A stretch of DNA of 27,557 nt from Candidatus Tectimicrobiota bacterium (GCA_016193065.1 JACPSX010000175.1:1-27557), one strand, 5' to 3'; counted from the first letter of the stretch, positions 2,606 through 23,133 are shown. Notes: a model not told the origin generated them from the letters alone. Translations and numbers: made by a program.

Positions 2606-2789
2606 CAGGCTGCTGAAAACCCTCCGTTCACCCTTCGACCGCGGGTACCCGCGAAGCGGGTGCGGTTTCCGGGTGAGGGCGAACGGAGGAAGTCCTGAAA
2701 TTGCTGATGATTTTCCGTTCGTGGTGAGCCCTTCGACCAGGCTCAGGACAGGCTTGTCGAACCACGAAAAGGATTTTTTCAGAATCCTG
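2606..2789. mobile_element. MITE-like non-autonomous element between rsmE and purH
   Basis: Imperfect terminal inverted repeats bound the element: CAGGCTGCTGAAAA (2606-2619) against the reverse complement of TTTTCAGAATCCTG (2776-2789), 12 of 14 matching. Inside are two further hairpins: stem CCTCCGTTC/GAACGGAGG (2621-2629 and 2681-2689) and stem TTCGTGGT/ACCACGAA (2718-2725 and 2761-2768), the latter with an inner TCGAC/GTCGA pair. The CCCTTCGAC...CTCAGGAC text resembles REP-type repeats I recall from many proteobacterial genomes. There is no transposase. The right end lies 19 bases before the purH start, so the element has displaced any ancestral purH upstream region. Confidence 0.6.
2643..2663 (+). 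repeat. 21-bp palindromic mini-element, copy A (nested in the MITE-like element)
   Basis: Arm GGGTACCCGC, loop GAA, arm GCGGGTGC. It sits in the loop of the first internal hairpin of the element at 2606-2789, where the sister hairpin has plain CAGGCTCAG-type sequence. This suggests secondary insertion. The same core, with a different 3-base loop, recurs at 13291-13311 (inverted) and 23113-23133. Confidence 0.65.
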
Positions 2790-2808
2790 TGAGAGGAGAA
2801 ATCGGCCG

Positions 2809-4371
2809 ATGGAGAAGATCAGCCGCGCCCTTATCAGCGTGTCGGATAAAAGGGGAGTTGTGGAACTGGCCCGTGGCCTTCAAGAAATGGGGGTCGAAAT
2901 CCTCTCCACGGGAGGAACGGCCGGCCTCTTGCAGAAAGAGGGCATCCGGGTCATCAGCGTCTCCGATTACACGGGCTTCCCGGAGATCCTGGGAGGAAGG
3001 GTCAAGACGTTGCAGCCCCGCATTCACGGCGGGATTCTGGCTAGGCGGGGGGACCCCGCCCATGTCCAGGATCTAAAGGCCCATGGCATTCTTCCCATCG
3101 ACCTGGTGGTGGTGAATTTGTATCCCTTCATTGAAACCGTCGCCCGTGCGGCCCTCTGCGCCTTGGAAGAAGCCATCGAGACCATCGACATTGGCGGGCC
3201 CTCGATGATCCGGGCTGCTGCGAAGAACTTCACGGACGTAGCCGTGGTTGTCGATCCGGAAGATTACCCCGCTCTTCTACAGGAACTGCGGGATCAGGGG
3301 GGGACCTTGTCGCGGCAGAAGCGGTTCGAGATGGCCTGCAAGGCCTTTGAGCATACGGCCCGCTATGATTCCTGCATTGCTTCCTACTTCCGCGGCCAGG
3401 TTGGAAAGGAGCTTTATCCCTCCACCATCACACTGGCTCTGGAGAAGGTCCAGGATCTTCGCTACGGGGAAAACCCCCACCAGTCTGCGGCCTTTTACCG
3501 GGAGATGGTGGTCGCGGAGCCCTGCCTGGCCAATGCTCGCCAGCTTCAGGGAAAGGAACTCTCCTACAACAACATCGTGGACCTGGACGCTGCTCTCGCT
3601 CTGGTCAAGGAATTTACGGATCCGACAGTGGCCATCATCAAGCACACGAATCCCTGCGGGGTTGCCCGGGGCGGCTCTCTGGCGGAAGCGTACGCAGGCG
3701 CCCTGGAGACGGACCCGGTATCGGCCTTTGGCGGCATCGTTGCCGTAAACCGGGCACTGGATCGCGGGACCGCTGCGGAGTTAAGCAAGACCTTTTATGA
3801 AGCCGTTGTAGCACCCGGCTATGAGGCGGGCGCCCTGGAGGTGTTCAGCACCAAGAAGAACCTCCGTGTCTTGGAGGTACCGCCGTGGGAACACAGGAAA
3901 GGGTGGAATCCCGAGACTTGGGATATGCGCAAGGTTGCCGGCGGCTATCTGCTCCAGCAGCGGGACTTGCTCGGGTGGCTCGGGATGGAGATCCGGGTGG
4001 TGACCCGCCGGGAGCCGACTCCGCAGGAATGGCAGGGCCTGGAATTTGTCTGGCTCGTTTCCAAACACGTGAAATCCAATGCGATTGTTTACGGGAATGC
4101 GAACCGCTCTTTGGCGATCGGGGCAGGACAGATGAGCCGCGTCGATTCTTGCCGGGTTGCCGCCATGAAGGCGCGTGGCTCTCTGCGGGGAGCGGTGATG
4201 GCTTCCGATGCATTCTTCCCGTTTCGAGATGGAATTGATGAGGCGGCTTCCGTGGGCATCACGGCCGTGGTCCAGCCCGGAGGTTCCATCCGGGATCAAG
4301 AAGTTATCGAAGCGGCCAACGAACATGGGATGGCCATGGTCTTTACCGGGGTTCGGCACTTCAAGCACTGA
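2809..4371 (+). CDS. purH: bifunctional AICAR transformylase / IMP cyclohydrolase
   Basis: The 520-residue protein has the usual PurH length and carries out the last two steps of de novo purine synthesis. It formylates AICAR from 10-formyl-THF and then closes the ring to IMP. The N-terminal MGS-like cyclohydrolase domain (about 1-150) shows ALISVSDKRGVVELA, ILSTGGTAGLL, GGRVKTLQPRIHGGIL and DLVVVNLYPF. The C-terminal transformylase domain shows LRYGENPHQSAAFYR, KELSYNNIVDLDAAL, the catalytic KHTNPCG, DPVSAFGGIVAVNR, SKHVKSNAIVYG and GAGQMSRVDSCR, then SDAFFPFRDGID and QPGGSIRDQEVI. ATG 2809 is preceded by GAGAGGAG. purD begins 10 bases after the stop, so the two are surely co-transcribed. No anomaly was seen. 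Confidence 0.97.
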   Translation: MEKISRALISVSDKRGVVELARGLQEMGVEILSTGGTAGLLQKEGIRVISVSDYTGFPEILGGRVKTLQPRIHGGILARRGDPAHVQDLKAHGILPIDLVVVNLYPFIETVARAALCALEEAIETIDIGGPSMIRAAAKNFTDVAVVVDPEDYPALLQELRDQGGTLSRQKRFEMACKAFEHTARYDSCIASYFRGQVGKELYPSTITLALEKVQDLRYGENPHQSAAFYREMVVAEPCLANARQLQGKELSYNNIVDLDAALALVKEFTDPTVAIIKHTNPCGVARGGSLAEAYAGALETDPVSAFGGIVAVNRALDRGTAAELSKTFYEAVVAPGYEAGALEVFSTKKNLRVLEVPPWEHRKGWNPETWDMRKVAGGYLLQQRDLLGWLGMEIRVVTRREPTPQEWQGLEFVWLVSKHVKSNAIVYGNANRSLAIGAGQMSRVDSCRVAAMKARGSLRGAVMASDAFFPFRDGIDEAASVGITAVVQPGGSIRDQEVIEAANEHGMAMVFTGVRHFKH

Positions 4372-4381
4372 GGGTCCAAAC

Positions 4382-5689
4382 ATGAAAATTCTGCTGGTTG
4401 GCAGCGGGGGGAGAGAACACGCTTTGGCCTGGAAGCTGAGCCAGAGCCCGCAGATCGACAAGGTCTACTGTGCCCCTGGCAATGCCGGCACGGCGGAGGT
4501 GGCCGAGAACCTCCCGGTGGGCAGCGAAGAGATTGGTGTGTTGTGCAGCATTGCCCAGCAAGCTCAAATCGATCTCACCGTGGTGGGGCCCGAACTCCCT
4601 CTGGTGGCTGGGATTGTGGACCTCTTTGAGGACAAGAACTTAAAAATTTTTGGACCCCGAAAGCAAGCCGCCATGCTCGAGGGAAGCAAGGTCTTTGCCA
4701 AAGAGTTCATGAGACGCCATGGCATTCCCACGGCGGATTTCCGGGTCTTTGATGAGCCCGGCGCAGCCCGCGACTTTATCGAGAAGAAGGGAGCCCCCCT
4801 GGTAGTGAAAGCAGACGGGCTGGCGGGCGGAAAAGGGGTCTTTGTCTGCACCACCGTGGCTCACGGGCTGGCGGCCGTTGAGAATCTAATGGAAAAAAAG
4901 ATCCTCGGTCCGGCCGGAGAGAAGATTCTGGTGGAAGATTTTCTCCCCGGTGAGGAAGCCTCCTTCCTGGCTTTTTGCGATGGTGAGAGAGTTCTCCCGC
5001 TCCCCGCCAGCCAAGACCACAAGCCTCTCCTCGACGGGGATCGGGGACCGAATACGGGAGGGATGGGCGCGTACTCCCCGGCTCCGGTCGTGACCCCGGA
5101 GTTAAGCCGGGCTGTGATCGACACGGTCATGATCCCCACGGTGAAAGCCATGGCTAAGGAGGGGAATCCTTACCAGGGCGTTCTTTATGCCGGCCTGATG
5201 ATCTCGAAGGGAAAAGCCTCGGTGCTGGAGTTCAACGTGCGCTTCGGAGACCCTGAGGCCCAGCCCCTTCTCTGCCGCCTGGAAACCGACCTGGTCCCCA
5301 TCTTCGAGGCGTGCTGCAGCGGGTCCCTGGAGCGGATTCAACCTCAATGGAATTCCCAAGCGGCGGTCTGCGTGGTGATGGCTTCCCGGGGGTATCCCGA
5401 CCGCTATGAGAAGGGGAAGGTCATCCGCGGTGTTCCGGATGCCGCAGCAATTCCGGGAGTGACGGTTTTCCACGCCGGCACTGCCCGGCGCGATGGGACG
5501 CTGGTCACCAACGGGGGGAGGGTTCTCGGGGTGACGGGCCTGGGCCCCGATGTTGCTTCGGCCATCGCTACGACTTATCGTGCCGTGAAGAAGATCTCTT
5601 GGGATGGGATGCACTTCCGCACGGACATCGGCGCAAAAGCCCTGCTGAAATCTCCAGGAGCCGGTCGGGCGGCACCGGGTTCGGGCTAA
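4382..5689 (+). CDS. purD: phosphoribosylamine--glycine ligase (GAR synthetase)
   Basis: From ATG 4382 the product has 435 residues, the normal PurD size. The reading frame is open further upstream inside purH, but that extension is unrelated sequence and MKILLVGSGGREHALAWKL is the classic PurD N-terminus. The enzyme joins glycine to phosphoribosylamine with ATP (second step of purine synthesis). ATP-grasp features are visible: VKADGLAGGKGVFVC (lysine and glycine-rich loop), EDFLPGEEASFLAF, QDHKPLLDGDRGPNTGGMGAYSP, and the metal-binding EFNVRFGDPEAQPLL. A weak GAGGG lies about 8 bases before the start, so translation may be coupled to purH. The stop codon overlaps that of the convergent MBL gene (stops at 5687-5689 and 5686-5688). 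Confidence 0.96.
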   Translation: MKILLVGSGGREHALAWKLSQSPQIDKVYCAPGNAGTAEVAENLPVGSEEIGVLCSIAQQAQIDLTVVGPELPLVAGIVDLFEDKNLKIFGPRKQAAMLEGSKVFAKEFMRRHGIPTADFRVFDEPGAARDFIEKKGAPLVVKADGLAGGKGVFVCTTVAHGLAAVENLMEKKILGPAGEKILVEDFLPGEEASFLAFCDGERVLPLPASQDHKPLLDGDRGPNTGGMGAYSPAPVVTPELSRAVIDTVMIPTVKAMAKEGNPYQGVLYAGLMISKGKASVLEFNVRFGDPEAQPLLCRLETDLVPIFEACCSGSLERIQPQWNSQAAVCVVMASRGYPDRYEKGKVIRGVPDAAAIPGVTVFHAGTARRDGTLVTNGGRVLGVTGLGPDVASAIATTYRAVKKISWDGMHFRTDIGAKALLKSPGAGRAAPGSG

Positions 5690-6477
5690 GGCCGCAAAGT
5701 CATTAGGTCTTCGCCAACCACCACGGGTCCTTGAAATGCCCTGCGAGCCTCCCGGGCGTATTCTTCCCCTCGATCTCCCTCTCGCAGGTGCACAAGCACC
5801 AGTTGTTTGACTCCACAACTGCGGGCGATTTCCCCGGCTTCCTGGGCCGTGGTGTGTCCCCGGCCTTTGCCTCCCGGCAGTGGGTGCAAAAAAGTAGCTT
5901 CCATCACCAGCAGATCCACTCCTCGAGCAAAGCGGGCCAAGGACTCGCAGGGGGAGGTGTCGCTCGAGTAGACGATTCGCTTGCCGCTCGAAAGGCTGGT
6001 GACTCGTACGGCTACTGTTGGAGGCCCATGGTCCACAGGGCAAGACTCGACCACAAAACCCCGGCCGCAATACAGCCTGTGACGCCGGCGGGCCGGGATG
6101 AGGCGGAGTTGCAGAGGAAACGGGAGGCGGGTTCGCCCCCCTAAGTGTATCGAAATCATTGACCGGATCAGGGTGTCTGCCTCCGGTGGGGCCCACAGCT
6201 TGAGGGGAAGCCGGCGGCCAAAGAGGTAAAGGGAGTGGACGAGAGAAGGGAGGCCGTAGCAGTGGTCGATGTGGCGATGGGTCAGGACGACGCCGCGGAC
6301 TCGCCCCGGATCGATTCCAGACTGCAGGAGCTTGCGGAACGGGCTCGCGCTGCTGTCGATTAGGACCGCATCCCGGCCGTCCCAGATGCCCAGCGCCGTG
6401 TTGTCGCGGTCCACGCTCGGCATCCCCGCAGAGGTCCCGAACAAGATCATTTGCAACGAGTTATCCGAAGTTGCCAT
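5686..6477 (-). CDS. RNase Z-like metallo-beta-lactamase-fold hydrolase
   Basis: The 263-residue product has the signatures of the RNase Z/ElaC branch of the metallo-beta-lactamase fold. LFGTSAGMPS lies at the N-terminus, then VLTHRHIDHCYGLPSL (the zinc-binding HxHxDH), CPVDHGPPTVAVRV (third metal histidine), IVYSSDTSPCE (bridging Asp), VMEATF, and GHTTAQEAGEIA with VLVHLREG at the C-terminus. RNase Z removes 3' trailers from tRNA precursors. Bacterial RNase Z is normally about 300-310 residues with a flexible exosite arm, and this protein is shorter with no obvious arm. A phosphodiesterase with another substrate is therefore possible. ATG 6477 is preceded by AGGAAGG. The gene is divergent from groES and convergent with purD. 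Confidence 0.82.
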   Translation of the reverse strand: MATSDNSLQMILFGTSAGMPSVDRDNTALGIWDGRDAVLIDSSASPFRKLLQSGIDPGRVRGVVLTHRHIDHCYGLPSLVHSLYLFGRRLPLKLWAPPEADTLIRSMISIHLGGRTRLPFPLQLRLIPARRRHRLYCGRGFVVESCPVDHGPPTVAVRVTSLSSGKRIVYSSDTSPCESLARFARGVDLLVMEATFLHPLPGGKGRGHTTAQEAGEIARSCGVKQLVLVHLREGDRGEEYAREARRAFQGPVVVGEDLMTLRP

Positions 6478-6684
6478 GGCCCCTTCCTGAACTCACAGCC
6501 AAAAGTTTCGCGGTCTGTTCGCACCGCTATCCTAACGACTCGCAAACCGGGGTGGCAACTTCTCCGCTACCCCAGCGCCGGAAAAATCATAAAAAAACCG
6601 GCGATTTCAGGTGAAATCTTACAAATAATACCCTGATTTTTCGTTTTTTTCCCAGCAGGTAGGTTTCTAAGGGAGAGATTCCTG

Positions 6685-6713
6685 TTGATTTCTTCTCCCG
6701 CTAGTTCTAAATT
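6685..6713 (+). promoter_or_regulatory. candidate groESL promoter
   Basis: TTGATT (6685-6690) and TAAATT (6708-6713) are 17 bases apart, each matching sigma-70 consensus at 4/6. The -10 box touches the first base pairs of the CIRCE element, so HrcA bound there would block initiation. That is the usual arrangement for CIRCE-regulated groESL operons. Confidence 0.5.
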
Positions 6714-6738
6714 AGCACTCACTTCAGTTGAGTGCTGA
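6712..6738. promoter_or_regulatory. CIRCE operator (HrcA site)
   Basis: TTAGCACTC (6712-6720), a 9-base spacer, then GAGTGCTGA (6730-6738). The consensus is TTAGCACTC-N9-GAGTGCTAA, so only one base of the right arm deviates. CIRCE is bound by the heat-inactivated repressor HrcA and normally controls groESL and dnaK operons. hrcA is not in this window. Confidence 0.95.
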
Positions 6739-6799
6739 TAATTACTTCGGCGAAAAACAGCTTCTACGGTAAATCAGCCGGTCAAGAAGGAGGAAGAGC

Positions 6800-8751
<1,952 letters not shown>

Positions 8752-8766
8752 GCGAAAGAGCAACCT

Positions 8767-8800
8767 CAAAGAGCCCCCGCTCGGAGGCAGGGGCTCTTTG
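8767..8800 (+). terminator. hairpin terminator after groEL
   Basis: An 11-bp perfect stem, CAAAGAGCCCC (8767-8777) with GGGGCTCTTTG (8790-8800), encloses a 12-base loop and starts 16 bases after the groEL stop. The stem is strong, but no clear T-run follows directly, so termination may be partial. Confidence 0.7.
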
Positions 8801-9660
<860 letters not shown>

Positions 9661-9771
9661 CCCCCTGCTTATTTCTTGGCTCAAGAGCGAAGAAACTCAG
9701 ACTACAGATTCTAAGCGGTGAGCGGCGGGGGCTTGTCTCATCGGCCGCACCGCATGTGGAGAGGAGGTTTC

Positions 9772-11071: not shown

Positions 11072-11079
11072 GACCTGCG

Positions 11080-11109
11080 GGGGCCGGCGGAAAGGCCGGC
11101 CCCATTTTT
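11080..11109 (+). terminator. Rho-independent terminator after glnA
   Basis: A perfect 9-bp GC-rich stem, GGGGCCGGC (11080-11088) with GCCGGCCCC (11095-11103), has a six-base loop GGAAAG and is followed by ATTTTT. It begins 8 bases after the glnA stop. Confidence 0.92.
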
Positions 11110-11180
11110 CCCCTCTCTCTCATCTTTGCCTGACCGCGCATTGAACGGCTGCCGGGATCTCTTTTTTCCTCTCTCAAGTT

Positions 11181-11224: not shown

Positions 11225-11473
11225 CGCCGATTCAGCATCACTGCACCCAACGGCACGGCAAATGGGGCTGCCCAGCCTGCCCTTCGCTTCACGCCTCCCG
11301 CAGCGACCCCTTCGGGGCGCCCAGGGTGGGACCCCTCCGCTACCGCCACGATATCTCCTCTGCTATCCGCAAACGGGTCTAGGCTGCCCGGTTTCCCATC
11401 CCTGGCCGCTCCCGATGGGTTTCCCCGCTGCTCCCGGCAGTTCCGCTCAAGGCAGGCAGGGCAGCCTGACCGG

Positions 11474-11680
11474 TAGTCCGAGGGAGTTGGCCCCCGCAGG
11501 CGACCTAAGCGGTTGCGAGGCAGGGAACCCCCGATCCAGCCGACATGATTCACGTCGCAAGCGCTTCGGGAGCCGCACCCATAGGATGGGTACCCGCATC
11601 CTGGGTGTGGGTACTCCCGAGGACCTTGCCCAAAGAGGCTCCCCCGAGGGTCTAGTGAGGGTAGCAATTCCTCGGTGACA
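11474..11680 (+). repeat. R2 family, copy II, interrupted by a palindromic element
   Basis: Ordered blocks are TAGTCCGAGGGA, CCCCCGCAGGCGACCTAAGC and GGTTGCGAGG, followed by GTCGCAAGCGCTTCGGGAGC (11554-11573). The first 100 bases match the inverted copy III (22974 down to 22877) with only scattered substitutions. After GGGAGCC the repeat is broken by the double hairpin at 11575-11609 and then resumes with CCGAGGACCTTGCCC as in copy I. Confidence 0.8.
11575..11609 (+). repeat. double-hairpin palindromic element, copy D (inside R2 copy II)
   Basis: GCACCCA, 5 bases, TGGGTACCCGC, 5 bases, GGGTGTG: two adjacent small hairpins sharing the GGGTACCCGC arm. The same arrangement occurs within the glnE reading frame at 14103-14140. 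The other R2 copies lack it at this position. Confidence 0.68.
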
Positions 11681-11710
11681 AACCGGGGGTGGTCACGGGC
11701 TGGAAAGGTA

Positions 11711-11739: not shown

Positions 11740-11776
11740 AAAACCGGTTGAGAGGGGCAGCCGGTGATGGAGGTCC

Positions 11777-14700
11777 ATGAGCCAGGTGAATGTGCAGAGC
11801 CTCTGCGGGGAATTGGCCGGACTGGTGGCAAGGGGCGAACCTTTCCACGACCGGTCTCGGGATCTGTTGAGCGCCCTGGGGTTTCTGGACCCTCCTGCCG
11901 CCTGGAAAAATCTCGGTCAGATCTGGGGCCAGGCGAATTTCAACCGCCTCTTTCCCGACTTCTTTCCCCGGTTTTGCGAGGCCTGTGCCCGGTCCTTCGA
12001 TCCGGATCAGGCCCTCAACAATTTTGAGCGCTTCTCAGCCCTAATCTACGACAAGAATTATCTCTACACGATTTTGTCCCAGCAGTCGCCCGTCCTGGCA
12101 TCCCTGCTGGCCATTTTTTCGGGGAGCCAGTTCTTGACCGATTTTCTTCTCAAGGACCCTTCCTACTTTGATCAGGCGGTCCGCCAGGAAACCACGTTCC
12201 GCAGCCGGATGAAGGAGGATCTGGAGAGAGATCTCACCACTTGCCTGGCTTCCACCCGGACTTCCCAGGATCTCATGAAGGCGCTGCGGCGCTTCAAGAA
12301 CAGAGAAATCCTCCGCATCGGGCTGCGGGATTTGATGCGGTACAGCGACCTGCCGGAAACCATGGAAGACCTCTCGAACCTGGCGGATGTGTGCGTGCAG
12401 GCGATTCTGGATTTCTGCTTGACGGAGTTGACCAGCCAGTACGGGCGCCCCATTGCCGAGGAAGGGGATTCGCGAAGCCCCTGTGAGTTTACCGTGATCG
12501 GTCTCGGGAAACTGGGGGGGCGGGAGCTCAACTTCAGCTCCGACATCGATGTGATTTATCTCTATTCCTCGGACAAGGGAGCCACGACGGGCATTCCCGC
12601 AGCCCGGGGTGAACGGGTCAACACCATCAGCAACCACGAGTTTTACACCAAGCTGGCCCAGATGATCACACGCTATTTGAACGAGATCACCCCCGAGGGC
12701 CAGCTCTTTCGCGTCGACTTGAACCTGCGCCCGGAAGGGCACAGCGGCGACGTGACCAACTCCTTAAGAAGCATGGAAATCTACTACGAGTCCTGGGGGC
12801 AGACCTGGGAACGCCAGGTCTTGATCAAGGCCCGCAGGATTGCCGGCAGTGAGAATCTTTCCCGGCAGTTCCTCGCCATGGTCACCCCTTTCATCTTCCG
12901 AAAGCATCTGGACTTCGGATCTCTGCACGAGATCCGGGAGATGAAGGAAAAAATCAACCGGGAGCTGGCTGGCCGGGGAAGCGGTGAGGGCAACGTAAAG
13001 TTGGGTTACGGCGGGATCCGCGAAGTGGAGTTCATCGTGCAGGCCTTCCAACTGATTTACGGTGGCAGAGACCGCTGGCTGCAGCAGCGCAATACCCTGC
13101 GCTCCCTGCACCGGCTCTCTGAGAAGGGCTACATCACTTACCGGGATTACGCGGACCTCAATAAAGCCTATGTTTACCTGCGCGAGCTCGAGCATCGGAT
13201 CCAGATTCAGCAAGGCCGGCAGACCCACGAGATTCCACGCTCGGTGCGGGAGCGGGCCGTGCTGGCCCGGAAGATGGGCCTGGAGGGGGGGCACCCGCAA
13301 GGCGGGTACCCGGAAATGTTGAGCGAGAAGCTCCTTGAGCTGTATCGCTTTCATACCGGGAACGTGCGCAGGGTCTACGACGAGCTTTTCTCGGCTCTGC
13401 AGGAAGAAGCCGCGGAGGAAGAGGACGATGTTTCCCTTCTCCTGGAAGGAGGGGCCAGCACAGAGGCCCTGGAAGCCCTGCGGCGTCGCGGGTTTCAGAT
13501 TCCCGAGCGGGCTCTTCAGAACCTGCAGAGTCTCTATCAAGGCCCTCCCTTCTCCCACCCCTCTGCCGCCAACCGCGCCCAGATGCGGCGCTTGATCTCC
13601 CGCCTGCTGGCCTGCTGCCCCACACTTGCGGATCCCGACTTTGCCCTGAATCACCTGGAGAAGTTCGTCAATACCTCAGGTTTGAGGGAATCCCTCACGG
13701 CCATGCTGGCCGAACGTCCACTGCTCCTTGAACACCTGCTCTCCCTGTTTGCCAGCAGCGAGTTTCTGTCTTCGGCCCTCATGCAGAGTCCGGAGCTCAT
13801 GGATCTCATCCTGGAGGAGATCGACCAGGATCGCCCGGTCCGCAAGGAAGAAATGTCCTCCCAGCTTTTACAGAATCTCCAAAATGCAACTTCCTATGAA
13901 GATAAGCTGGAGATTCTGCGTGTCTTTAAGAAAGGGACGGAGCTGAAAATCGCCCTCCGGGACCTGCAGGGGAAGGCCGATTTAACCGAGGTGATGGAGT
14001 CGCTGTCGGATCTGGGGGATGTCATTTTGGAGGCGGCGGCGGGGATCGCCTTGGGAGAGTTGAACACCCGATACGGTGTTCCCAAGTTGTCTGCGGGCTT
14101 GCGCACCCACTCCGTGGGTACCCGCGCTTTGCGGGTGTGCCGTTTTGCAGTGATTGCTCTGGGAAAGTACGGCGGGAGGGAACTGAGCTTTGGCTCCGAC
14201 CTGGACGTGGTCTTCGTTTATGAAGGTGAGGGGGAAAGTGAGGTTTCAGCGCGGGGCCCGGACCGCGGATGGAAACCGGAAGCCTCCATCGGAAACCAGC
14301 TTTTCTTCGCCAAGTTGGGAGAGAAGATCGTCCAGGCCATCAGCGGAGTGACCCGGATGGGGCACGTATACCGGCTGGACTTACGTCTGCGGCCCGAAGG
14401 GGAGAAGGGACCCCTGGCGGTTTCCCTGGAAACTCTCGAGGACTATCACCGTTGCCGGGCCGCTCTGTGGGAGGGGCAATCGTGGCTGAAAGCCAGGCCG
14501 GCGGCCGGCGACCCGGCCTTTGGAAAGATCGTGGTCTTCCGGATCCAGGAGACTTGGGCCGCCAGGCCCCTGGGTGCCCAGGCCGCTGAAGACTTCAAGG
14601 GGATGCGCCAGCGCATGGAGGCCGAGAGGGTTTGGCCGCAGGGAGGCGGGCAGCACATCAAGCTGGGACCCGGAGGCATTACCGACGTTGAGTTCATCAC

Positions 14701-15043
14701 CCAGTACTTGCAGTTGAAGTATGGGGGGCAGGATCCTGATCTACGCACGCCCTCGACTCTGGAATCCCTGCGCAGGATCGCCCGGGGGGGCTACCTGGGT
14801 CCGGCAGAGTGTTCCCGGCTGCAGGAGGCCTATCTTTTCTTGCGCGGTTTGGAAAATCGGTTGCGGGTCTTTGAGTCTCTGTCCACCAGCGTGCTGCCGG
14901 CCGATACCGGGCGCTTGAGAATCCTGGCCAGACGCCTGGGCTACCCGGACGGGCGACACAACGCCCCGGAAGCCCAGCTTCTAACCGATTACGAGCGGCA
15001 TACCTCCGCGGTCCGTGAAATCTTTGCGCGCGTCTTTGCTTAG
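11777..15043 (+). CDS. glnE: bifunctional glutamine synthetase adenylyltransferase/deadenylase
   Basis: The 1088-residue protein has the two-fold architecture of GlnE, which adds AMP to and removes it from a tyrosine of GlnA in response to PII and glutamine. The first nucleotidyltransferase half shows FTVIGLGKLGGRELNFSSDID with RVDLNLRPEGHSG, then KLGYGGIREVEFIVQAFQL. The second half shows FAVIALGKYGGRELSFGSDLD with RLDLRLRPEGEKG and KLGPGGITDVEFITQYLQL. ATG 11777 follows GGAGG by 5 bases. It is longer than the usual 950-1000 residues. Part of the excess lies at two palindromic repeats embedded in frame, near residues 505-512 (HPQGGYP) and 776-789 (RTHSVGTRALRVC). Its natural substrate gene glnA upstream is broken in this sequence. 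The end is 20 bases from a convergent glycosyltransferase gene. Confidence 0.95.
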   Translation: MSQVNVQSLCGELAGLVARGEPFHDRSRDLLSALGFLDPPAAWKNLGQIWGQANFNRLFPDFFPRFCEACARSFDPDQALNNFERFSALIYDKNYLYTILSQQSPVLASLLAIFSGSQFLTDFLLKDPSYFDQAVRQETTFRSRMKEDLERDLTTCLASTRTSQDLMKALRRFKNREILRIGLRDLMRYSDLPETMEDLSNLADVCVQAILDFCLTELTSQYGRPIAEEGDSRSPCEFTVIGLGKLGGRELNFSSDIDVIYLYSSDKGATTGIPAARGERVNTISNHEFYTKLAQMITRYLNEITPEGQLFRVDLNLRPEGHSGDVTNSLRSMEIYYESWGQTWERQVLIKARRIAGSENLSRQFLAMVTPFIFRKHLDFGSLHEIREMKEKINRELAGRGSGEGNVKLGYGGIREVEFIVQAFQLIYGGRDRWLQQRNTLRSLHRLSEKGYITYRDYADLNKAYVYLRELEHRIQIQQGRQTHEIPRSVRERAVLARKMGLEGGHPQGGYPEMLSEKLLELYRFHTGNVRRVYDELFSALQEEAAEEEDDVSLLLEGGASTEALEALRRRGFQIPERALQNLQSLYQGPPFSHPSAANRAQMRRLISRLLACCPTLADPDFALNHLEKFVNTSGLRESLTAMLAERPLLLEHLLSLFASSEFLSSALMQSPELMDLILEEIDQDRPVRKEEMSSQLLQNLQNATSYEDKLEILRVFKKGTELKIALRDLQGKADLTEVMESLSDLGDVILEAAAGIALGELNTRYGVPKLSAGLRTHSVGTRALRVCRFAVIALGKYGGRELSFGSDLDVVFVYEGEGESEVSARGPDRGWKPEASIGNQLFFAKLGEKIVQAISGVTRMGHVYRLDLRLRPEGEKGPLAVSLETLEDYHRCRAALWEGQSWLKARPAAGDPAFGKIVVFRIQETWAARPLGAQAAEDFKGMRQRMEAERVWPQGGGQHIKLGPGGITDVEFITQYLQLKYGGQDPDLRTPSTLESLRRIARGGYLGPAECSRLQEAYLFLRGLENRLRVFESLSTSVLPADTGRLRILARRLGYPDGRHNAPEAQLLTDYERHTSAVREIFARVFA
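13291..13311 (-). repeat. 21-bp palindromic mini-element, copy B (inside glnE)
   Basis: On the minus strand the sequence reads arm GGGTACCCGC, loop CTT, arm GCGGGTGC, identical to copies A and E except for the 3-base loop. In the glnE frame it encodes about HPQGGYP. At 21 bases, its insertion keeps the reading frame. Confidence 0.65.
14103..14140 (+). repeat. double-hairpin palindromic element, copy C (inside glnE)
   Basis: GCACCCA, 5 bases, TGGGTACCCGC, then GCTTTGC and GGGTGTG, the same double hairpin as copy D at 11575-11609. It lies just before the second nucleotidyltransferase core of GlnE and encodes about RTHSVGTRALRV. The equivalent linker in the first half of the same protein has no such segment. 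Confidence 0.68.
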
Positions 15044-15063
15044 AAGCAGGCAAGTCGCGAGGG

Positions 15064-16101: not shown

Positions 16102-16203
16102 GCCGTTCTGGCTCGGAGTTCCTCTGCCTTGCGGATCCTGTCATAGACCCGGCAGCAGATTGGGATATTTTTTCCCTGGCTTCTGTGCAACGCTTAATTA
16201 GTG

Positions 16204-16209
16204 TATTAT
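16204..16209 (+). promoter_or_regulatory. candidate -10 box for the ubiD-family gene
   Basis: TATTAT (5/6) sits in the AT-rich part of the divergent gap, 78 bases before the start codon. No good -35 box is found at the usual distance, so this is tentative. Confidence 0.25.
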
Positions 16210-16287
16210 ATCCACCGGATATTGCCACCTCCCATCCTTGCTACCTTCAGCCAGTCACGAGGGCCATTCTCCAAGGAGGACGTAGCC

Positions 16288-17742
16288 ATGGCATTTGATG
16301 ATCTCAAGGATTTCCTCAAGGTTCTTCGGGACCGCGGCGAACTTCACGAAGTCGAGGTGGAAATGGATCCCACTTGGGAAGTCTCCGCCGTCTGCCGCAG
16401 GGTCTTTGACGAGCGCGGACCGGCTCTGCTCTTCCGGCGGGTCGGGAACCATCGCACGCCCCTTCTGGTAGGAGCCCTGGCGACCCGGACCCGCTACCAG
16501 ATCGGCCTGGGTCTGGGAGATCAACCGACCTCCATTGGCCTGATCCGGGAGAGATGGGGCAATGCCTTCCAAAACCCAATTCCTCCCCAAAAGGTTTCCG
16601 GGAACCAGGCCCCCTGCAAGCAGGTCAAGGCGAAAGGGATCGACCTCTACGCGGATCCCTTCCCGGTCCCCCTTTGGCATTATCAGGACAGCGCACCTTA
16701 TCTGGGGACCCTGCACGCGGTGATCTCAAAGGATCCCGAAACGGGTTGGATCAACCTGGGGAATTACCGCAACGAGATTCGCTCCCGGGACACCCTGGGC
16801 GTCTTCATCATTCCTTACCGCCATATCGGTCTGCACTTGCAGAAGTGGAAAGCGATTGGTAAGCCGATGCCGATTGCCATTGCGGTGGGCCTGGAGACCG
16901 CTCTCAATCTGGTGGCGGTCGCCCCCGTAAAGGCCGGGCAAAGTGAATACGATGTGGCTGGGGGGCTCAAGGGGAAGCCGGTCGAGGTGGTGGAAGCCGA
17001 AACCTGCGATTTGCTGGTCCCGGCCCATGCCCAGATCGTCATTGAGGGCTACGTGCCCATCGACGAGACTCTCCCCCAGGAGGGCCCCTTTGGAGAATTT
17101 GCCGGATATATTGGAGAGCAGGTGTACAATTGCAACTTCATGAAGGTGACGGCCGTCACCTATCAGGAAAACCCCATTTTCCAGGGGACCTATGAAGGTC
17201 TCCCCCCTAATGAAAGCACGACGGTTCGGAGCATCGGGCGTTCCGCTTCCCTGTACAATCACTTGACGGGGGTGGTCGGTTTGCCCGGAATCGTGGACGT
17301 GTGCGTCACGGAAGGGGGCTGCGCTGGATTTCACGCCGTGGTGTCGATTCACAACAGCTACCCGGGTCACGTGCGCGACGTGATGACGAACTGTTGGGGC
17401 CAGCCCACCCTGTTCGTCAAAAACGTCATCGTGGTCGATGAGGACATCGATCCCTGGGACCCCGTCAAGGTCGAGTGGGCCATTGCGACCACCATGAAGC
17501 CCACCCGGGATATTGAGATCGTCAAGCGGGGGACCTCGATCAGCATCGACCCTTCCTCGCCGCGGCCCGGATCCGGGCAGAGCGGTGCCATTGTCACCGA
17601 TCTGCTGGGCATTGACGCGACCCGCCCCCATTTCGAATACGCAGAGAAAGGGTGCACCTTCCCGCAACTGGCCGTGCCGAAACCGGAACACATGGAGGCG
17701 GTTCGGAAGAATTGGTCCCGCTACGGGTTCCGGTCGTCCTGA
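16288..17742 (+). CDS. UbiD-family prenylated-FMN-dependent (de)carboxylase
   Basis: From ATG 16288 (AAGGAGGA 7 bases upstream) the product has 484 residues, normal for UbiD enzymes. UbiD proteins decarboxylate, or reversibly carboxylate, unsaturated or aromatic acids using prenylated FMN made by UbiX. Catalytic positions are visible: N156-L-G-N-Y-R161, matching the Asn/Arg pair of Fdc1, and E265-GPFG-E270, matching its two glutamates. Other landmarks are FDDLKDFLKVLRDRGEL, PALLFRRV, the IPYRHIGLHLQKW segment, and QGTYEGLPPNEST. WINLGNYRNEI and the following segment resemble hydroxyarylic-acid and related anaerobic UbiD branches more than ubiquinone UbiD as I recall them. No ubiX or aromatic pathway gene is adjacent, so the substrate is unassigned. 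The open frame extends to 16201, but family alignment supports this start. Confidence 0.92.
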   Translation: MAFDDLKDFLKVLRDRGELHEVEVEMDPTWEVSAVCRRVFDERGPALLFRRVGNHRTPLLVGALATRTRYQIGLGLGDQPTSIGLIRERWGNAFQNPIPPQKVSGNQAPCKQVKAKGIDLYADPFPVPLWHYQDSAPYLGTLHAVISKDPETGWINLGNYRNEIRSRDTLGVFIIPYRHIGLHLQKWKAIGKPMPIAIAVGLETALNLVAVAPVKAGQSEYDVAGGLKGKPVEVVEAETCDLLVPAHAQIVIEGYVPIDETLPQEGPFGEFAGYIGEQVYNCNFMKVTAVTYQENPIFQGTYEGLPPNESTTVRSIGRSASLYNHLTGVVGLPGIVDVCVTEGGCAGFHAVVSIHNSYPGHVRDVMTNCWGQPTLFVKNVIVVDEDIDPWDPVKVEWAIATTMKPTRDIEIVKRGTSISIDPSSPRPGSGQSGAIVTDLLGIDATRPHFEYAEKGCTFPQLAVPKPEHMEAVRKNWSRYGFRSS

Positions 17743-17751
17743 AAGTTGGGG

Positions 17752-18228
17752 TCAGCGGATAGAGATGTCCAAAATGGTGAATTCCCGGATACCGGAAGGG
17801 GTTTTCACCTTGACCGCATCATCCAGGGCGTGACCGATCAAGGCCCGGCCCACGGGGGAATTCACGGAGATCTTGCCCTGCTCGATATCGGCCTCGTCGG
17901 CGCCCACGATGCGGTAGCGCACGCGCTCTCCGCTTTCACAGTCTTCCAGGAGGACCGTGGCTCCAAAGACAACGCGATCATTGGGTAAATTGGAGGTGTC
18001 GATCACCTGGGCGCGGCCAAGTTTGTCCTGTAGGAGTCGGATCCGGCCTTCCACGAATGATTGTTGTTCCTTGGCAGCGTGGTATTCGGCGTTCTCGCTC
18101 AAATCACCATGAGCACGGGCTTCGGCAATGGCTTGGATGACCCGAGGCCGCTCCTCCTGCTGCAGGCGCTTCAACTCCTGGCCGAGTTGTTCATAACCTT
18201 CCCTGGTCATTGGAACTCGTTCAACCAT
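17752..18228 (-). CDS. greA: transcription elongation factor GreA
   Basis: Starting at ATG 18228 the product is 158 residues and begins [19 protein letters not shown], matching the usual GreA N-terminus. A TTG nine bases further upstream is too close to the AGGAG motif to serve. GreA inserts into the RNA polymerase secondary channel and stimulates cleavage of backtracked RNA. The coiled-coil tip [16 protein letters not shown] carries the conserved Asp and Glu that hold the metal, followed by [17 protein letters not shown]. The globular C-terminal domain shows [39 protein letters not shown] and VKTPSG. It lies 9 bases from the convergent ubiD-family stop. Confidence 0.97.
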
Positions 18229-18547
18229 CGCGATCAAGGCTCCTGCTCATTCAGATTACGAGGGGATTGAGGCGCCCGAAAGCGCTCCGAGAACTCTGCG
18301 ATCCACCCGGCAGCAAGCGGTGCTGGACGGCAAAACGGTCTTCGCCCCGACTGTGGCTGAAGAGGTTATTGGGCTCCAGTTCAAGTGATCCGGTTGCGGA
18401 ATCCGTCCCTGGATCCCCGGGCCGGGAAATCGATCGACTCGGAAGATTGGACCGCGATGCAATTCGGATCCCTTGGTGGTTCATGGCCAGAGAGAATCAA
18501 CCTTGGCTCCGGTTCACTTACCCACTGCACTGATTTTCCCGGCCCGC
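18229..18547. other. gap upstream of greA
   Basis: About 320 bases between ctpA (ending at 18548) and the greA start, both on the minus strand. Short overlapping open frames are present (up to 77 codons), but none has a recognisable motif or good start. I see no repeat, tRNA or strong promoter here. Confidence 0.4.
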
Positions 18548-19867
18548 TTATCCGGCCTTGGCCGGCTGGACCATATTTTTAAAGATGCTCCAGCTTTTGA
18601 GGAGATCAATGGCCCGGTTTAGCTGGGGATCCTGGACTGGATCATCGGGCTTGCCGTTGTTCGAATCGTCCTTGCCTTCTTCCTTGGCGGGGGGAGATCC
18701 CTCCAGGTGTCCCTTGAGATCCTTTTCCCGCACCACTCGCTCCTCTTGTTTTGCCGCCTGGGTGGGGACAATCTCGGCTACCACGATATCCGGAGTGATC
18801 CCTTTGGCTTGAATCTCTCGGCCTTTGGGGGTGAAGTACTTCGCCGTTGTGAGCCTGAGGGCTGAGCCGTCACTCAGGGGCAGAATCGATTGCACGGAAG
18901 CCTTCCCAAAGGTCCGAACTCCAAGGATCACAGCTCTTCCCTGGTCTTGAAGAGCCCCAGCTACGATTTCCGAGGCACTGGCGCTTCCGGCGTTGACCAG
19001 CACAACCAGGGGCTCCGTGATAGAAACATTCGAGGAGTTGGCGCGGTAGCGTTTGCTGGTGCCGCTTGCTCGCCCCTCTGTGTAAACCACCAGTTCTCCC
19101 TTGGGGAGGAACAGACCGGACACTTTGATGGCCTGGTCCAAAAGGCCTCCGGGGTTGTTCCGGAGATCCAGAATGATCCCCTTGGGCTTGACCTTTTTGA
19201 TCTCGGTGAGGATCTTCTCCATCTCCTCTCCCGAATTGCGGTTGAAAGTCCTGAGACGGATGTAGCCGATGTTGCCGTCGATGACCCGGGAACGCACACT
19301 TTGGATTCGGATCACGTCCCGCGTCATGGTGAAATCCTTAGGTGCCGGGAGCCCTTCCCGGACAATGGTCAGGGTGACGGTGGAACCCTTCGGTCCCCTC
19401 ATCCGCTTTACTGCCTCTTGGAGGTTCATGTCTTTGGTCGATTCCCCGTCGATCCGGATGATCTTATCCCCGGCCTTTAAGCCGACCCGGGAGGCCGGTG
19501 TGCCCTCGATGGGAGCCACGATCGTCAACTGGTCGTCTTTGACGGTGATTTCTATCCCGAGTCCCCCGAAACTCCCCTCGGTTTCCACCTGCATTTCCTT
19601 GTACATCGCCGGTTCCATGAACGCGGAGTGGGGATCCAGCGTCTTGAGCATCCCCTGAATGGCACCGTAGAGGATCTGCTGGGGCTTGAGCTCCTCCACG
19701 TAGTTGGCTTGAATCAAGTACAGGGCGTCGTTGAAAATCCGCAGGTTTTCGTAAGTGGAACTGACGGCCCTGACCTTTTGGCTCGTGAAGGCACCGGCTG
19801 CCAGAATGATCGCTACAAACACAAGGCCCCAGAAAAGCCATTTCTTGCGGCCGCACGCTGAAATCAT
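18548..19867 (-). CDS. ctpA: C-terminal processing peptidase (S41 family)
   Basis: From ATG 19867 (GGAGG 6 bases upstream) the product has 439 residues. The longer open frame lacks such support. An N-terminal hydrophobic segment (about residues 9-27) anchors or exports it to the periplasm. Next come a helical domain with NDALYLIQANYVEELKPQQ, a PDZ domain (about 95-175; FGGLGIEI, PASRVGLKAGDKI) and the serine peptidase core: GYIRLRTF, GIILDLRNNPGGLLD, VNAGSASASEIVAGAL with Ser297 as the likely nucleophile, and TFGKASVQ with Lys322 as general base. The C-terminus is a charged, low-complexity tail (KEEGKDDSNNGKPDD). These proteases trim or degrade periplasmic proteins, including cell-wall hydrolases. 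It is the last gene of the ftsE-ftsX-envC-like cluster, 88 bases after the previous stop. Confidence 0.94.
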   Translation of the reverse strand: MISACGRKKWLFWGLVFVAIILAAGAFTSQKVRAVSSTYENLRIFNDALYLIQANYVEELKPQQILYGAIQGMLKTLDPHSAFMEPAMYKEMQVETEGSFGGLGIEITVKDDQLTIVAPIEGTPASRVGLKAGDKIIRIDGESTKDMNLQEAVKRMRGPKGSTVTLTIVREGLPAPKDFTMTRDVIRIQSVRSRVIDGNIGYIRLRTFNRNSGEEMEKILTEIKKVKPKGIILDLRNNPGGLLDQAIKVSGLFLPKGELVVYTEGRASGTSKRYRANSSNVSITEPLVVLVNAGSASASEIVAGALQDQGRAVILGVRTFGKASVQSILPLSDGSALRLTTAKYFTPKGREIQAKGITPDIVVAEIVPTQAAKQEERVVREKDLKGHLEGSPPAKEEGKDDSNNGKPDDPVQDPQLNRAIDLLKSWSIFKNMVQPAKAG

Positions 19868-19955
19868 ACAAAGCCTCCCGGGGGAAAGCTCATCTCCCCA
19901 CAAACACTTTAAACGCCACTGAGTCATCGCCCGTAAGCACCCCAAGTATACGGTC

Positions 19956-21158
19956 CTAGGGGGCCTTTTTCAACCAATTTAAGGGATCTTCGGGTTTTCC
20001 CTGGCGGCGGATCTCGAAGTAGAGCGTGGGGTCGGACTCGGAATTCCCATGGCCCAGACGGGCGATCGGTTGCCCCCCACTGACCTGATCCCCCACCTTC
20101 ACCAGGATCTGGGCCAGATGGCCGTAAATGGAGTAGAGGCTGTTGCCGTGGTCGATAATCAGGATGTTGCCGTAGCCCTTCAGTTCGTTGGCATAGAGAA
20201 CTTCTCCGCCGGCCACGGTGCGGATGGAACTGCCCGAGGCTGCTGCAATATCGATCCCCTTGTTGAACGTGTAGACGTCGTACTTGGGATGCAGGGTTTT
20301 GCCGAAAAAGGCGGAGACTTCGCCGGAGACGGGCCAGGGCAGGGTGCCCCGGCCGACGGGCTCTGTCTTCCCGCGCTGGCCGTTGCGCGGGCGCAAGGAG
20401 GCTTGTCTTCTTTCCAATTCCTGAATCAGCTTCTGCAGGCGCTGCGCGGTCGATTCCAGCTCCTTCTGGGCCTGCACTTGACCCGCTTTGGTCAGACGAA
20501 TTTTGGCGAGCAGGCGGCTTTTTTCAGCCCGCTCCTCGGCCATCTGCCTCTGGGCCTCTGCGGCCTTTTTCTGGTAAGCCAGGATGGAGGTTTCCAGGCG
20601 GCGCAGGCGGTCTTGAGAGGTTTCCAGAACAGTCCTCTGGGCGGCAAATTTCACCATCCGTTCCCGGTCCCGCTGCAGCACTGCCCTAAGGTACTTGATC
20701 CGGGTGAGAAGGTCCATCCAGTCGCTCCCTGTAAAGGCCGCTTGGGACGTGAAGTCATGCCCCTGTTTGTAGAGAGCGCGGAGCCTGTCCTTGAACTGAG
20801 CCTCCTTTTCTAAGAATTGGGAGCTGAGCTTTTTCAGATCACTCTCTACCTTCCTTTTTTCCGCCTGGTTGCGCTCCAGGTTCAACTTGTAGACCTGCAG
20901 TTCCCGCTTGAACTTGGCGATGCGGCTTTCGATGGCTGCCAGCTTTTCCATCGTGTTCCCCTCGGCGGCCTCGGTTTTGCGGACGGCCTCTTTCTGGCGC
21001 TCGATAGCCTCTTGGATCTGGCGCAGCTTCGTTCTCTGCTCCCGGGCTTTGGCCGCAGAAGAGGTGGCTGCCCAACTTGGAAGCGCTCCCCAGCAGAGAA
21101 CAGTCAGGAGAACAACCAAGGCTGCCATTGGGACGGTGCGACACTCGCTACGCGCCAT
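19956..21158 (-). CDS. EnvC-like coiled-coil protein with degenerate LytM (M23) domain
   Basis: ATG 21158 gives 400 residues and overlaps the end of ftsX by 11 bases; the longer frame needs a TTG start. A signal peptide is clear (hydrophobic core AALVVLLTVLCWGAL, cleavage probably after SWA near residue 30). Residues about 35-275 are charged and heptad-rich, a long coiled coil. The LytM fold (about 285-400) shows LPWPVSGEVSAFFG, GIDIAA, GYGNILIIDHG, YSIYGHL and the closing LYFEIRRQG. The zinc site is damaged: the HxxxD motif reads N299-KGI-D303 and the HxH motif reads T378-L-Y380, although D303 and H347 remain. A peptidase is therefore unlikely, and an EnvC-type activator of N-acetylmuramoyl-L-alanine amidases fits better. 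Position directly after ftsEX supports this, since FtsEX controls EnvC in E. coli. Confidence 0.9.
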   Translation of the reverse strand: MARSECRTVPMAALVVLLTVLCWGALPSWAATSSAAKAREQRTKLRQIQEAIERQKEAVRKTEAAEGNTMEKLAAIESRIAKFKRELQVYKLNLERNQAEKRKVESDLKKLSSQFLEKEAQFKDRLRALYKQGHDFTSQAAFTGSDWMDLLTRIKYLRAVLQRDRERMVKFAAQRTVLETSQDRLRRLETSILAYQKKAAEAQRQMAEERAEKSRLLAKIRLTKAGQVQAQKELESTAQRLQKLIQELERRQASLRPRNGQRGKTEPVGRGTLPWPVSGEVSAFFGKTLHPKYDVYTFNKGIDIAAASGSSIRTVAGGEVLYANELKGYGNILIIDHGNSLYSIYGHLAQILVKVGDQVSGGQPIARLGHGNSESDPTLYFEIRRQGKPEDPLNWLKKAP

Positions 21159-22053
21159 GCTTTCTCGACAGGGGTCTGCAGGCAAAAGAGCTCCCTACAA
21201 CCCCAAGAGCAACGCCGGCCGCCACACCCCCTCCGATGACCTGGCGGGAAAAAAAGACCGGAGGGGGCAACCCCAGGAAAGGAGCGCTTAGATTCAGCCG
21301 GCTCTGGAGCGCCCAGAAGAGGGCTCCCAGCAGGGCCAGGGCCAGGACGGCACAGCACCCCCCTAGAAACGCTCCTTCGCACAGGATCGGCATCCGCATC
21401 ATCGTCCGGGTCGCGCCCGCCCATTGCAGAACCTCGAGTTCCTCCTGGCGCTGGGCCATGGACCTCTGAATGCTGGAGGCGATGATAAAGAGGACGGAAA
21501 AACCAAGCAGGGACCCGATCACGATTCCGGCGACTCTAACAGTGGCCACTACGGCTTCAAAGCGCTCAAGCCACTTCTTCCCGTACTCCACATCTTCGAT
21601 GCCCGCCACGGAGGACAGGGTTCGGGACAAGCGCTCCAGGTCCCGGCCCTGGCGAAATTCCCCTTTCAAAGACACCAGATAAGAGGCTGGCAGCGGGTTC
21701 CCCTCGATCCCTGCCAGCAGATTCCGGTTCCCAGGAAAACTTTGGGTGAACTGCGCATAGGCCTCTTCTTTGGAAACAAAGCGAAACCTTTCCACCTCGG
21801 ACTGGCGGCGCAGGGTATCCTCCAGGCGGGAACGCTGGGTCGGAGTCAGGTCGTCCCGCAAGAAGACAACCACCCGCACCTGCTCTCCAAGATTCTCCAG
21901 AGCCCGTTCGAGATTCGTCAGCAAGAGACCGAAAGCTCCCAGGATGACCATCGACACCGTCACGGCGCTGGTCACGAAAAAGGCCTCCCCCTTGCGCCGC
22001 AGGAAGTTGCCTACGGTCTCGCGAATGACGAAGGTCATGCTGGACCAGTTCAT
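21148..22053 (-). CDS. ftsX: cell division protein FtsX
   Basis: The 301-residue protein is a typical FtsX, the membrane subunit of the FtsEX complex that couples ATP hydrolysis to septal wall cleavage. After a short cytoplasmic start (VIRETVGNFLRRKGEAF), a first membrane helix lies at about 25-46. A large periplasmic domain follows at about 50-170, with VVVFLRDDLTPTQ, FVSKEEAYAQF, NPLPASYLVSL and VEYGKKWLERF. Then come three membrane helices near 178-198, 225-250 and 272-292. The cytoplasmic RQEELEVLQWAGATRTMMRMPILCEG segment contacts the ATPase. The start codon overlaps the ftsE stop by four bases (ATGA), indicating translational coupling. Confidence 0.95.
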   Translation of the reverse strand: MNWSSMTFVIRETVGNFLRRKGEAFFVTSAVTVSMVILGAFGLLLTNLERALENLGEQVRVVVFLRDDLTPTQRSRLEDTLRRQSEVERFRFVSKEEAYAQFTQSFPGNRNLLAGIEGNPLPASYLVSLKGEFRQGRDLERLSRTLSSVAGIEDVEYGKKWLERFEAVVATVRVAGIVIGSLLGFSVLFIIASSIQRSMAQRQEELEVLQWAGATRTMMRMPILCEGAFLGGCCAVLALALLGALFWALQSRLNLSAPFLGLPPPVFFSRQVIGGGVAAGVALGVVGSSFACRPLSRKHGA

Positions 22054-22796
22054 CGCGACTCCACGATCTGCCCCTGGCGCAGGACAATCGCCCGCCTGCC
22101 CGAGCGCTCCGCGAGCTGCCGGGCATGGGTGGCAAACAGGATCGTTGTCCCCCGGCGATTTATTTCTTCAAAGAGCTTGTAAATCTCGGCTGCGAACTTC
22201 TCGTCCAGGTTTCCCGTGGGCTCGTCGGCGATCAGGATCAGAGGAGAATCCACCAGCGCCCGCGCCACGGCGACTTTCTGCCGTTCCCCTTCGGAGAGGC
22301 GCGCGGGATAGGCCTCTTTCTTCTCTTCCAGCCCGGCCCACTGGAGAGTCTCCCAAGTCCTTTTTTTCACGACCTTGTTTGGAATTCCCTGGGCCTGCAG
22401 TGTGATGGCCACATTGTCAAAAACCGTTCTGTGGGAAAGGAATTTGCTCTGCTGAAAGATGATTCCGAGCTGCCGTCGGTAGTGGGACAATTCAGCAGGC
22501 CGCAGGCGGGAGAGGTTGCGGCCATTGACGATGATCTGTCCCCGGGTTGGGGGTTCTGCAGCAATCAGCAGGCGCAGCAAGGTCGTTTTCCCGGCCCCGC
22601 TGGGTCCCGTGAGGAACACGAAATCACCGCGAGTGATGCCCAGAGAAATTTCTTCGAGAGCAGTACAATTGGGGCCGTAGGATTTGCTGACCCCGAACAT
22701 CTGGATGATTTCCGGGGAGTTAAGCTTTTGCCTAAGCAAAGCCCTTTTAACCTCCAGAGTTTGGAAGAAATTATCATTTCTCACCAGTTCCGGCAA
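22050..22796 (-). CDS. ftsE: cell division ATP-binding protein FtsE
   Basis: This is an ABC-type ATPase partner of FtsX. Motifs, in order: VSKSYGPNCTALEEISLGI, Walker A GPSGAGKTTLLRLL, Q-loop IIFQQSKFLSHRTVFDNVA, signature LSEGERQKVAVARAL (Glu replaces the usual second Gly), Walker B LILIADEPTGNLD, and the switch ATHARQ. The C-terminus is IVLRQGQIVES. The full open frame gives 248 residues from a TTG, while FtsE proteins are normally 220-230. The family N-terminus aligns with IIQMFGVSKSYG near residue 30, so the true start is probably nearer 22740-22700 (TTG 22739 has GGAGG 11 bases upstream; ATG 22700 has no good site). It is the first gene of the operon, and the region upstream is repeat-filled. 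Confidence 0.93.
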   Translation of the reverse strand: MPELVRNDNFFQTLEVKRALLRQKLNSPEIIQMFGVSKSYGPNCTALEEISLGITRGDFVFLTGPSGAGKTTLLRLLIAAEPPTRGQIIVNGRNLSRLRPAELSHYRRQLGIIFQQSKFLSHRTVFDNVAITLQAQGIPNKVVKKRTWETLQWAGLEEKKEAYPARLSEGERQKVAVARALVDSPLILIADEPTGNLDEKFAAEIYKLFEEINRRGTTILFATHARQLAERSGRRAIVLRQGQIVESR

Positions 22797-22851
22797 TAGA
22801 AAATCTACCCTTGCCTACCTCCAGTTTTTCATCGAGGGATTGCACACAGGT

Positions 22852-22974
22852 GAGGTCCTCGGGGTGCCCCCTTGGGCTCCCGAAGCGCTTGCGACGCGAA
22901 TTATGTTGGCCGGATTGGGGATTCTCTTCCTCGCAACCGCTTAGGTCGCCTGCGGGGGCTACCCCTCGGACTAG
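22852..22974 (-). repeat. R2 family, copy III (inverted)
   Basis: On the minus strand it reads TAGTCCGAGGGG, CCCCCGCAGGCGACCTAAGC, GGTTGCGAGG, then GTCGCAAGCGCTTCGGGAGC and CCCCGAGGACCTC, the same order as copy II at 11474. Here the GGGAGCC and CCGAGGACC blocks are joined directly by CAAGGGGGCAC, as in copy I, with no palindrome between them. Confidence 0.8.
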
Positions 22975-23112
22975 AGGTGGTCGAGAAGGGGAGACCGGGT
23001 GTGGCCCGCAGGGCGACTTAAAGTTTTGCAGGTGTCGCCGCCGGAAAACTCGACTTCCCTGGCATGCGAAAGAGAGATGACTTCAAATCGCCCTCGCGCG
23101 CAAAAGTTTACC

Positions 23113-23133
23113 GGGTACCCGCAGAGCGGGTGC
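23113..23133 (+). repeat. 21-bp palindromic mini-element, copy E
   Basis: Arm GGGTACCCGC, loop AGA, arm GCGGGTGC, identical in both arms to copies A and B. It is followed by CCAAGGGGCACCCCGG, which resembles the block of R2 copy III, so this copy too appears to sit beside or inside an R2 fragment. Confidence 0.62.

Follow-up and report, generated by a model that had tools for sequence, protein, structure and literature searches.

A 21-letter hairpin dispersed through a bacterial genome, a candidate for one of the smallest mobile DNA elements

Elements as small as the one described here have, to our knowledge, been reported chiefly from cyanobacteria and mitochondria, and how they are moved has yet to be established. 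The small dispersed repeats (SDRs) of Nostoc and its relatives, credited to Elhai et al. 2008, are said to be hairpins of 21-27 nt that carry paired changes and nest in themselves and in other repeats, and they have reportedly been seen near heptamer arrays. Cyanobacterial SDRs are cited in passages of PMC3116915 and PMC4390886, the passage in the second citing the precise insertion of SDR5 inside HIP1. REP sequences and REPINs are palindromes of 20-40 bp with a tag and a stem-loop, which form dimers and alternative complementary stems and are in some cases intragenic (PMC3733652, PMC3116915). The palindromic elements of Rickettsia insert in frame into unrelated genes, their main families being about 150 bp long (PMC10969869) and the short RPE-4 and RPE-6 carrying a CGTC tag (PMC3733652). 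Finally, mitochondrial GC clusters and repetitive or double hairpin elements are GC-rich, have variable loops, occur singly, doubly or merged and lie in some cases within genes (PMC4478555, PMC2800124).

The stretch of DNA analysed here (the window, 27,557 nucleotides at its full length) is contig C142 of a genome of 2.9 Mb in 294 contigs, 86% complete. An initial annotation had described a palindromic mini-element at five sites, all of which were re-found in place (2643-2663, 13291-13311, 23113-23133, 11575-11609 and 14103-14140). They are given below with the gene that hosts two of them and with three targets that stand empty in the window.

2643..2663, plus strand: 21-bp element GGGTACCCGC-GAA-GCGGGTGC, tip GC-GAA-GC, in a larger repeat (about 2621-2692); a sister copy (L116) has a single element where this locus is nested
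2739..2744, plus strand: empty target AGGCTC in host repeat 2731-2752; filled here in sister copies L143 and L154
11322..11327, plus strand: empty target CAGGGT; filled in either orientation in sister copies
11418..11425, plus strand: empty target, the GGTTTCCC form of the GGTCCC site, in another host repeat
11575..11609, no strand assigned: double hairpin within dispersed host repeat 11490-11660; a reverse-strand element (tip AT-CCT-AT) is nested in one of 19 bp (tip ATCCT)
11777..15043, plus strand: glnE (GlnE adenylyltransferase), host to two insertions with the reading frame kept
13291..13311, minus strand: 21-bp element with tip GC-CTT-GC, in glnE, where it is read as GHPQGGYP
14103..14140, no strand assigned: double hairpin in glnE, translated as about RTHSVGTRALRV; at this point homologues are shorter by about 11 residues
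23113..23133, plus strand: 21-bp element with tip GC-AGA-GC, within a dispersed host repeat of about 22985-23180; GGAGCC stands at this place in sister copies L148 and L163

A hairpin of about 21 letters is dispersed some 200 times in this genome, inside other repeats and in frame within genes. Within the window the 21-mer pattern, allowing up to three mismatches, was matched seven times, as against 0.02 matches expected from shuffles. Across the whole genome GGGTACCCGCNNNGCGGGTGC with up to two mismatches gave 128 matches and its reversed control none, the pattern GCACCCN{3,20}GGGTACCC gave 111 against 2, and the wide pattern GGGTACCC-N(3-9)-GGGTG (that is, GGGTACCCN{3,9}GGGTG) gave 209 against 3, so that the five sites first described understate its abundance. 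Chance and GC content as sources of the copies are ruled out by the reversed-pattern controls. A sample of about 310 kb, made up of 60 stretches (about 283 kb) together with the window and two further loci, holds 125 GGGTACCC octamers, of which 106 adjoin a hairpin; it was picked around copies and is non-random. A literature search on GGGTACCC returned primers and unrelated papers, and a known RNA family was discarded as an identity, there being no Rfam match in the window. The dispersed host repeats are themselves about 80-190 nt long (in the window 22985-23180, 11490-11660, 22850-22960 and 1684-1760), have many relatives in the genome and likewise match nothing in Rfam.

The unit can be written GGGTACCC - XX - NNN - X'X' - GGGTGC, with a 5' GGGT, a stem of ACCC-XX and X'X'-GGGT, a 3-base loop and a short tail, the ends of the element being GGGT and GC or GT. 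Its fixed parts are GGGTACCC and GGGTG(C/T/A), with the tip between them. In 89 of 121 copies the tip is 7 nt long (two bases, a 3-base loop that is nearly free in sequence, and two complementary bases), and its stems are of four kinds, GC/GC in 53 copies, GG/CC in 12, AC/GT in 10 and AT/AT in 6; other tips are shorter and stemless (mainly TCT) or longer. The seven-base tips are fully paired in 81 cases, whereas shuffling the 3' halves gave 39.9 on average and 53 at most. The stem is thus maintained through paired changes. The earlier statement that arms are conserved while loops differ holds for GGGTACCC and GGGTG(C) but not for the next two pairs, which are variable yet complementary (81/89). 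At the outer end a conserved T lies opposite G (GTACCC/GGGTGC), where a G-U pair could form only in the RNA of one strand.

The many other dispersed repeats of the window genome allow copies with and without the element to be aligned, and at least eight host repeat families yielded such filled and empty pairs, to which several nested cases can be added. At targets unrelated to one another, about 6 bp are replaced by about 21 bp, the edges of the replacement being uncertain by one or two bases. At the AGGCTC site the empty form is CCTTCGACC-AGGCTC-AGGACAGG (window 2731-2752) and the filled form CCTTCGACC-GGGTACCCGGCTTCCGGGTGC-AGGACAGG; at the CAGGGT site they are GGGGCGCC-CAGGGT-GGGACC (window 11314-11335) and GGGGCGCC-GGGTACCCATTCTATGGGTGC-GGGACC; and at the GGAGCC site GTTTACT-GGAGCC-CCAAGG and GTTTACC-GGGTACCCGCAGAGCGGGTGC-CCAAGG. 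Of the pairs, which are not independent, 34 gave a net change of +15 and 19 one of +16, with +13 (seven pairs) or +18 (five) where the alignment is ambiguous. By host family, +15 was found in five (AGGCTC, CAGGGT, GGAGCC, GGTCCC and CGGCGT) and +16 in three (AAAGT, GGCGA and CGCCT), the latter being confined to host repeats among the sites seen. It had been proposed that the element keeps the frame since 21 is a multiple of three; this argument is not supported, as the net gain is not +21 but +15 (21 for about 6), or +16 in some families. Because several copies share the same hexamer, and because the elements at the CAGGGT site differ in tip and lie in opposite orientations, the empty state probably preceded the filled one.

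The filled and empty pairs showed no target-site duplication, the filled sites having about 6 nt less of the target. The flanks of elements were no more complementary than shuffled ones and the folds of eight empty targets share no loop position, and a preference for hairpin tips as targets was accordingly rejected. A derivation of the tip from the removed hexamer was also discarded, a comparison by eye giving partial resemblance in some families and none in others. At the site gccgcgcg[AAAGT]ggg one copy (L133) has a different, 32-nt hairpin (GGGCACCGAGCCCGCGCAAGCGGGCTTGGTCG) as compared with L155, L125, L135 and L131; the same AAAGT target is filled by the 21-bp element in L163, so that one site takes different hairpins.

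Double hairpins fit the replacement rule, because they consist of a second element inserted in the GGGTACCC of a first, which takes 21 bp to 36. Single-hairpin sister copies were found for several of the host repeats that hold double hairpins, among them the ones at 2643 and 11575 of the window. Elements were also observed in head-to-tail arrays with a period of 15 or 16 bp (L112 4778-4848, L120 1978-2030 and L158 12005-12040), the last of them within a NuoF-like reading frame.

Copies within genes present the same picture at the level of proteins. In glnE the single element (13291) is in frame in a loop about 4-7 residues longer than in homologues, and the double element (14103) is likewise in frame and in a loop. 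Elsewhere in the window genome, PDB homologues of TrmD show a 13-residue gap at the element, homologues of an amidohydrolase lack the insert, and in mfd the element lies in the CarD/RID domain with the frame open through it. Tails or linkers with an element were found in DnaX, TamB, FliK, a NuoF-like protein, FliO and a GcvP2-type protein, in each case on the basis of an open frame through the element. The in-frame copies in unrelated conserved genes occur in both orientations. A design for readability in all frames was considered and rejected, stop-free frames being no commoner than in random sequence of equal composition. The initial annotation's idea of a dispersed, hairpin-constrained mini-element that enters both genes and other repeats is therefore borne out by filled and empty pairs at unrelated targets and by homologues without the insert for glnE, trmD and the amidohydrolase.

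The window genome is the sole member of its phylum in the collection. Other lineages were scanned with one tip type across 84,980 species genomes, a scan that may not have covered the window genome itself. Of the 44 stretches returned, many were single matches in GC-rich genomes that may be due to chance, and repeated matches came from Methylomirabilota, Rokubacteria, one Nitrospirae bin and one Nealsonbacteria bin; the carrier assemblies are drafts, and those named are metagenome bins. The wide pattern was matched 36 times in G070, 17 in G060, 13 each in G064 and G075, 12 in G062, 10 in G037 and 5 in G076, with controls of 0-4. The copies examined in G060 and G070, which are two Methylomirabilota bins, lie in one long repeat, and most of those in G075 lie within a CCCTCTCCC-type repeat, so the hairpin may be a passenger of a larger repeat in G060, in G070 and in most of G075. 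The long repeat common to G060 and G070 (L192-L211) has a core like gcgacgtacc...gtacg followed by the GGGTACCC hairpin, with variable loops.

A different situation is found in G037, which is AT-rich, belongs to another phylum and has ten isolated, GC-rich hairpins in surroundings of about 40% GC, and in G076 (Ca. Nealsonbacteria CG01_land, a 0.4 Mb bin), where all five copies are perfectly paired, isolated and GC-rich. The copies in these two genomes are mostly in open frames, their hosts being uL18 and GatA, a PrmC-like methyltransferase and a ComF-like protein recognised by eye, and, identified through a PDB match, a dihydrolipoamide dehydrogenase. Among 378 further members of the G076 phylum the wide pattern was at about control level and most matches were unpaired. 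The GatA of the closest relative found reads ESKISNF-KF-QISNL, compared with ESKIANF-RVPAARV-QISNL in G076, and in the DNA CGGGTACCCGCCGCGCGGGTAC replaces one AAATTTC unit of a tandem array, a net +15 relative to that relative. The gatA case would not by itself prove target loss, because heptamer arrays vary in length, and relative to more distant PDB homologues the length difference is almost zero because that loop is variable. Whilst the gatA copy sits within its tandem AAATTTC heptamer array, a copy in G037 adjoins GATTGG-like repeats (L293 and L245). Carriage by phage was looked for and rejected, a single match being found in a viral contig of 79% GC and none with the AC/GT tip. From the sporadic presence of the same core in other phyla we infer that the hairpin has spread between lineages.

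The hairpin has inserted recurrently and in either orientation, replacing its target, nesting in itself and keeping its fold, and it is likely that it is a very small mobile element that replaces the target. More tentatively, and with a probability put somewhat below even, it is suggested that the hairpin is mobile and common to several phyla, including a Nealsonbacteria genome, and that it moves by replacement (about 6 bp out and 21 in, net +15) via an unrecognised enzyme. The 21-bp element carries no genes, and so would need to be mobilised in trans. A structure-specific nuclease, recombinase or transposase might recognise the hairpin as single-stranded DNA or in a transcript copy; the target would be opened by cuts staggered by about 6 nt, and the piece between them would be lost as the hairpin was joined and copied. 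If the arms and the fold are what is recognised, the loops would be expected to drift. Taken alone, these enzymatic steps are doubtful.

Among the alternatives, retro-copying would have a tiny hairpin transcript reverse-transcribed into the genome, an RNA route having been proposed for the double-hairpin elements of Allomyces (PMC2800124). The lack of target-site duplication in the pairs and the T opposite G that could pair only in RNA of one strand are consistent with such a route, which is nevertheless considered unlikely. The layout of a tag plus a short hairpin also invites comparison with REP-type elements moved by a REP-associated tyrosine transposase (Y1/HUH), in which case GGGT would stand for the GTAG tag and the double hairpins would be REPIN-like dimers. 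Y1_Tnp genes are present in the carriers G000 (2), G037 (3), G064 (4), G062 (2) and G076 (1), and a Y1 transposase is the obvious candidate enzyme, but the 12 Y1 loci examined have no GGGTACCC within about 1.5 kb (less at contig ends), four carriers (G060, G070, G066 and G075) have no Y1 match, neither GTAG nor CGTC stands beside the hairpin, and Y1 genes also occur in the CPR genomes G090, G319 and G374 without a comparable hairpin set. The suggestion of such a transposase in the initial annotation is therefore not supported, and the REP reading is improbable. A non-mobile functional site under selection, such as a protein-binding or RNA-processing hairpin, would account for conserved arms with variable loops within one host repeat and for the repeated intergenic contexts in G064 and G075; it is very hard to reconcile with in-frame copies in unrelated conserved genes in both orientations and with sister genomes of G076 near control level. 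Local formation of hairpins by template switching or conversion between palindromes, for which palindrome-rich repeats hold many copies and for which complementary tip changes are the expectation, is scarcely credible given that the same GGGTACCC/GGGTG core recurs at unrelated sites, in isolated AT-rich genes and in several phyla, that flanks are no more complementary than shuffled, and that in the AT-rich genes of G037 and G076 the insertions lie between unrelated flanks without a nearby template.

If mobility by replacement in several phyla is true, few known DNA elements that spread horizontally would be as small as the hairpin, which would also give rise to 5-residue insertions in proteins. 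Its in-gene copies show one way in which short loops are acquired by housekeeping proteins. The family offers clean filled and empty pairs that differ by a near-constant length, its recognition core is fixed and among its carriers are small genomes (the 0.4 Mb Nealsonbacteria bin), so that the mover of 20-bp hairpins becomes testable through the gene content of carriers and non-carriers.

An important consideration is how this element stands in relation to the systems already described. It resembles the mitochondrial hairpin elements in being GC-rich, in its variable loops, single and double forms and merging, and in lying in some cases within genes, but those are organellar and of other sequence, and yeast GC42 has AG target-site nucleotides. 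With REP/REPIN sequences and their RAYTs it has in common a short palindrome, the tag plus stem-loop layout, double forms, alternative complementary stems and some copies in genes, whereas it lacks a GTAG or CGTC tag, no flanking Y1 gene was found, target is lost and, unlike in REPINs, the dimer is explained by nesting. The likeness to the Rickettsia palindromic elements that had been drawn for it extends to in-frame insertion in genes but not to family membership, the element being 21 bp long and without a CGTC tag. A MITE, which would have terminal inverted repeats flanked by a target-site duplication, was rejected on filled sites that show no such duplication and lack about 6 nt of target. 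The defining features of REP/RAYT systems, Rickettsia palindromic elements and MITEs are thus absent. From the SDRs it differs in sequence as far as known, in its presence in several non-cyanobacterial phyla, in lying in frame in conserved genes and in the replacement of about 6 bp of target. In size class, a hairpin with paired changes, nesting and heptamer-array contexts the two are alike, and each SDR feature that was tested was found, namely high copy number as a dispersed repeat some 20-27 nt long (209 against 3), a structure with compensatory changes (81/89 against a shuffle maximum of 53), and nested insertions with presence in other repeats, so that the element appears to behave like the small dispersed repeats of cyanobacteria.
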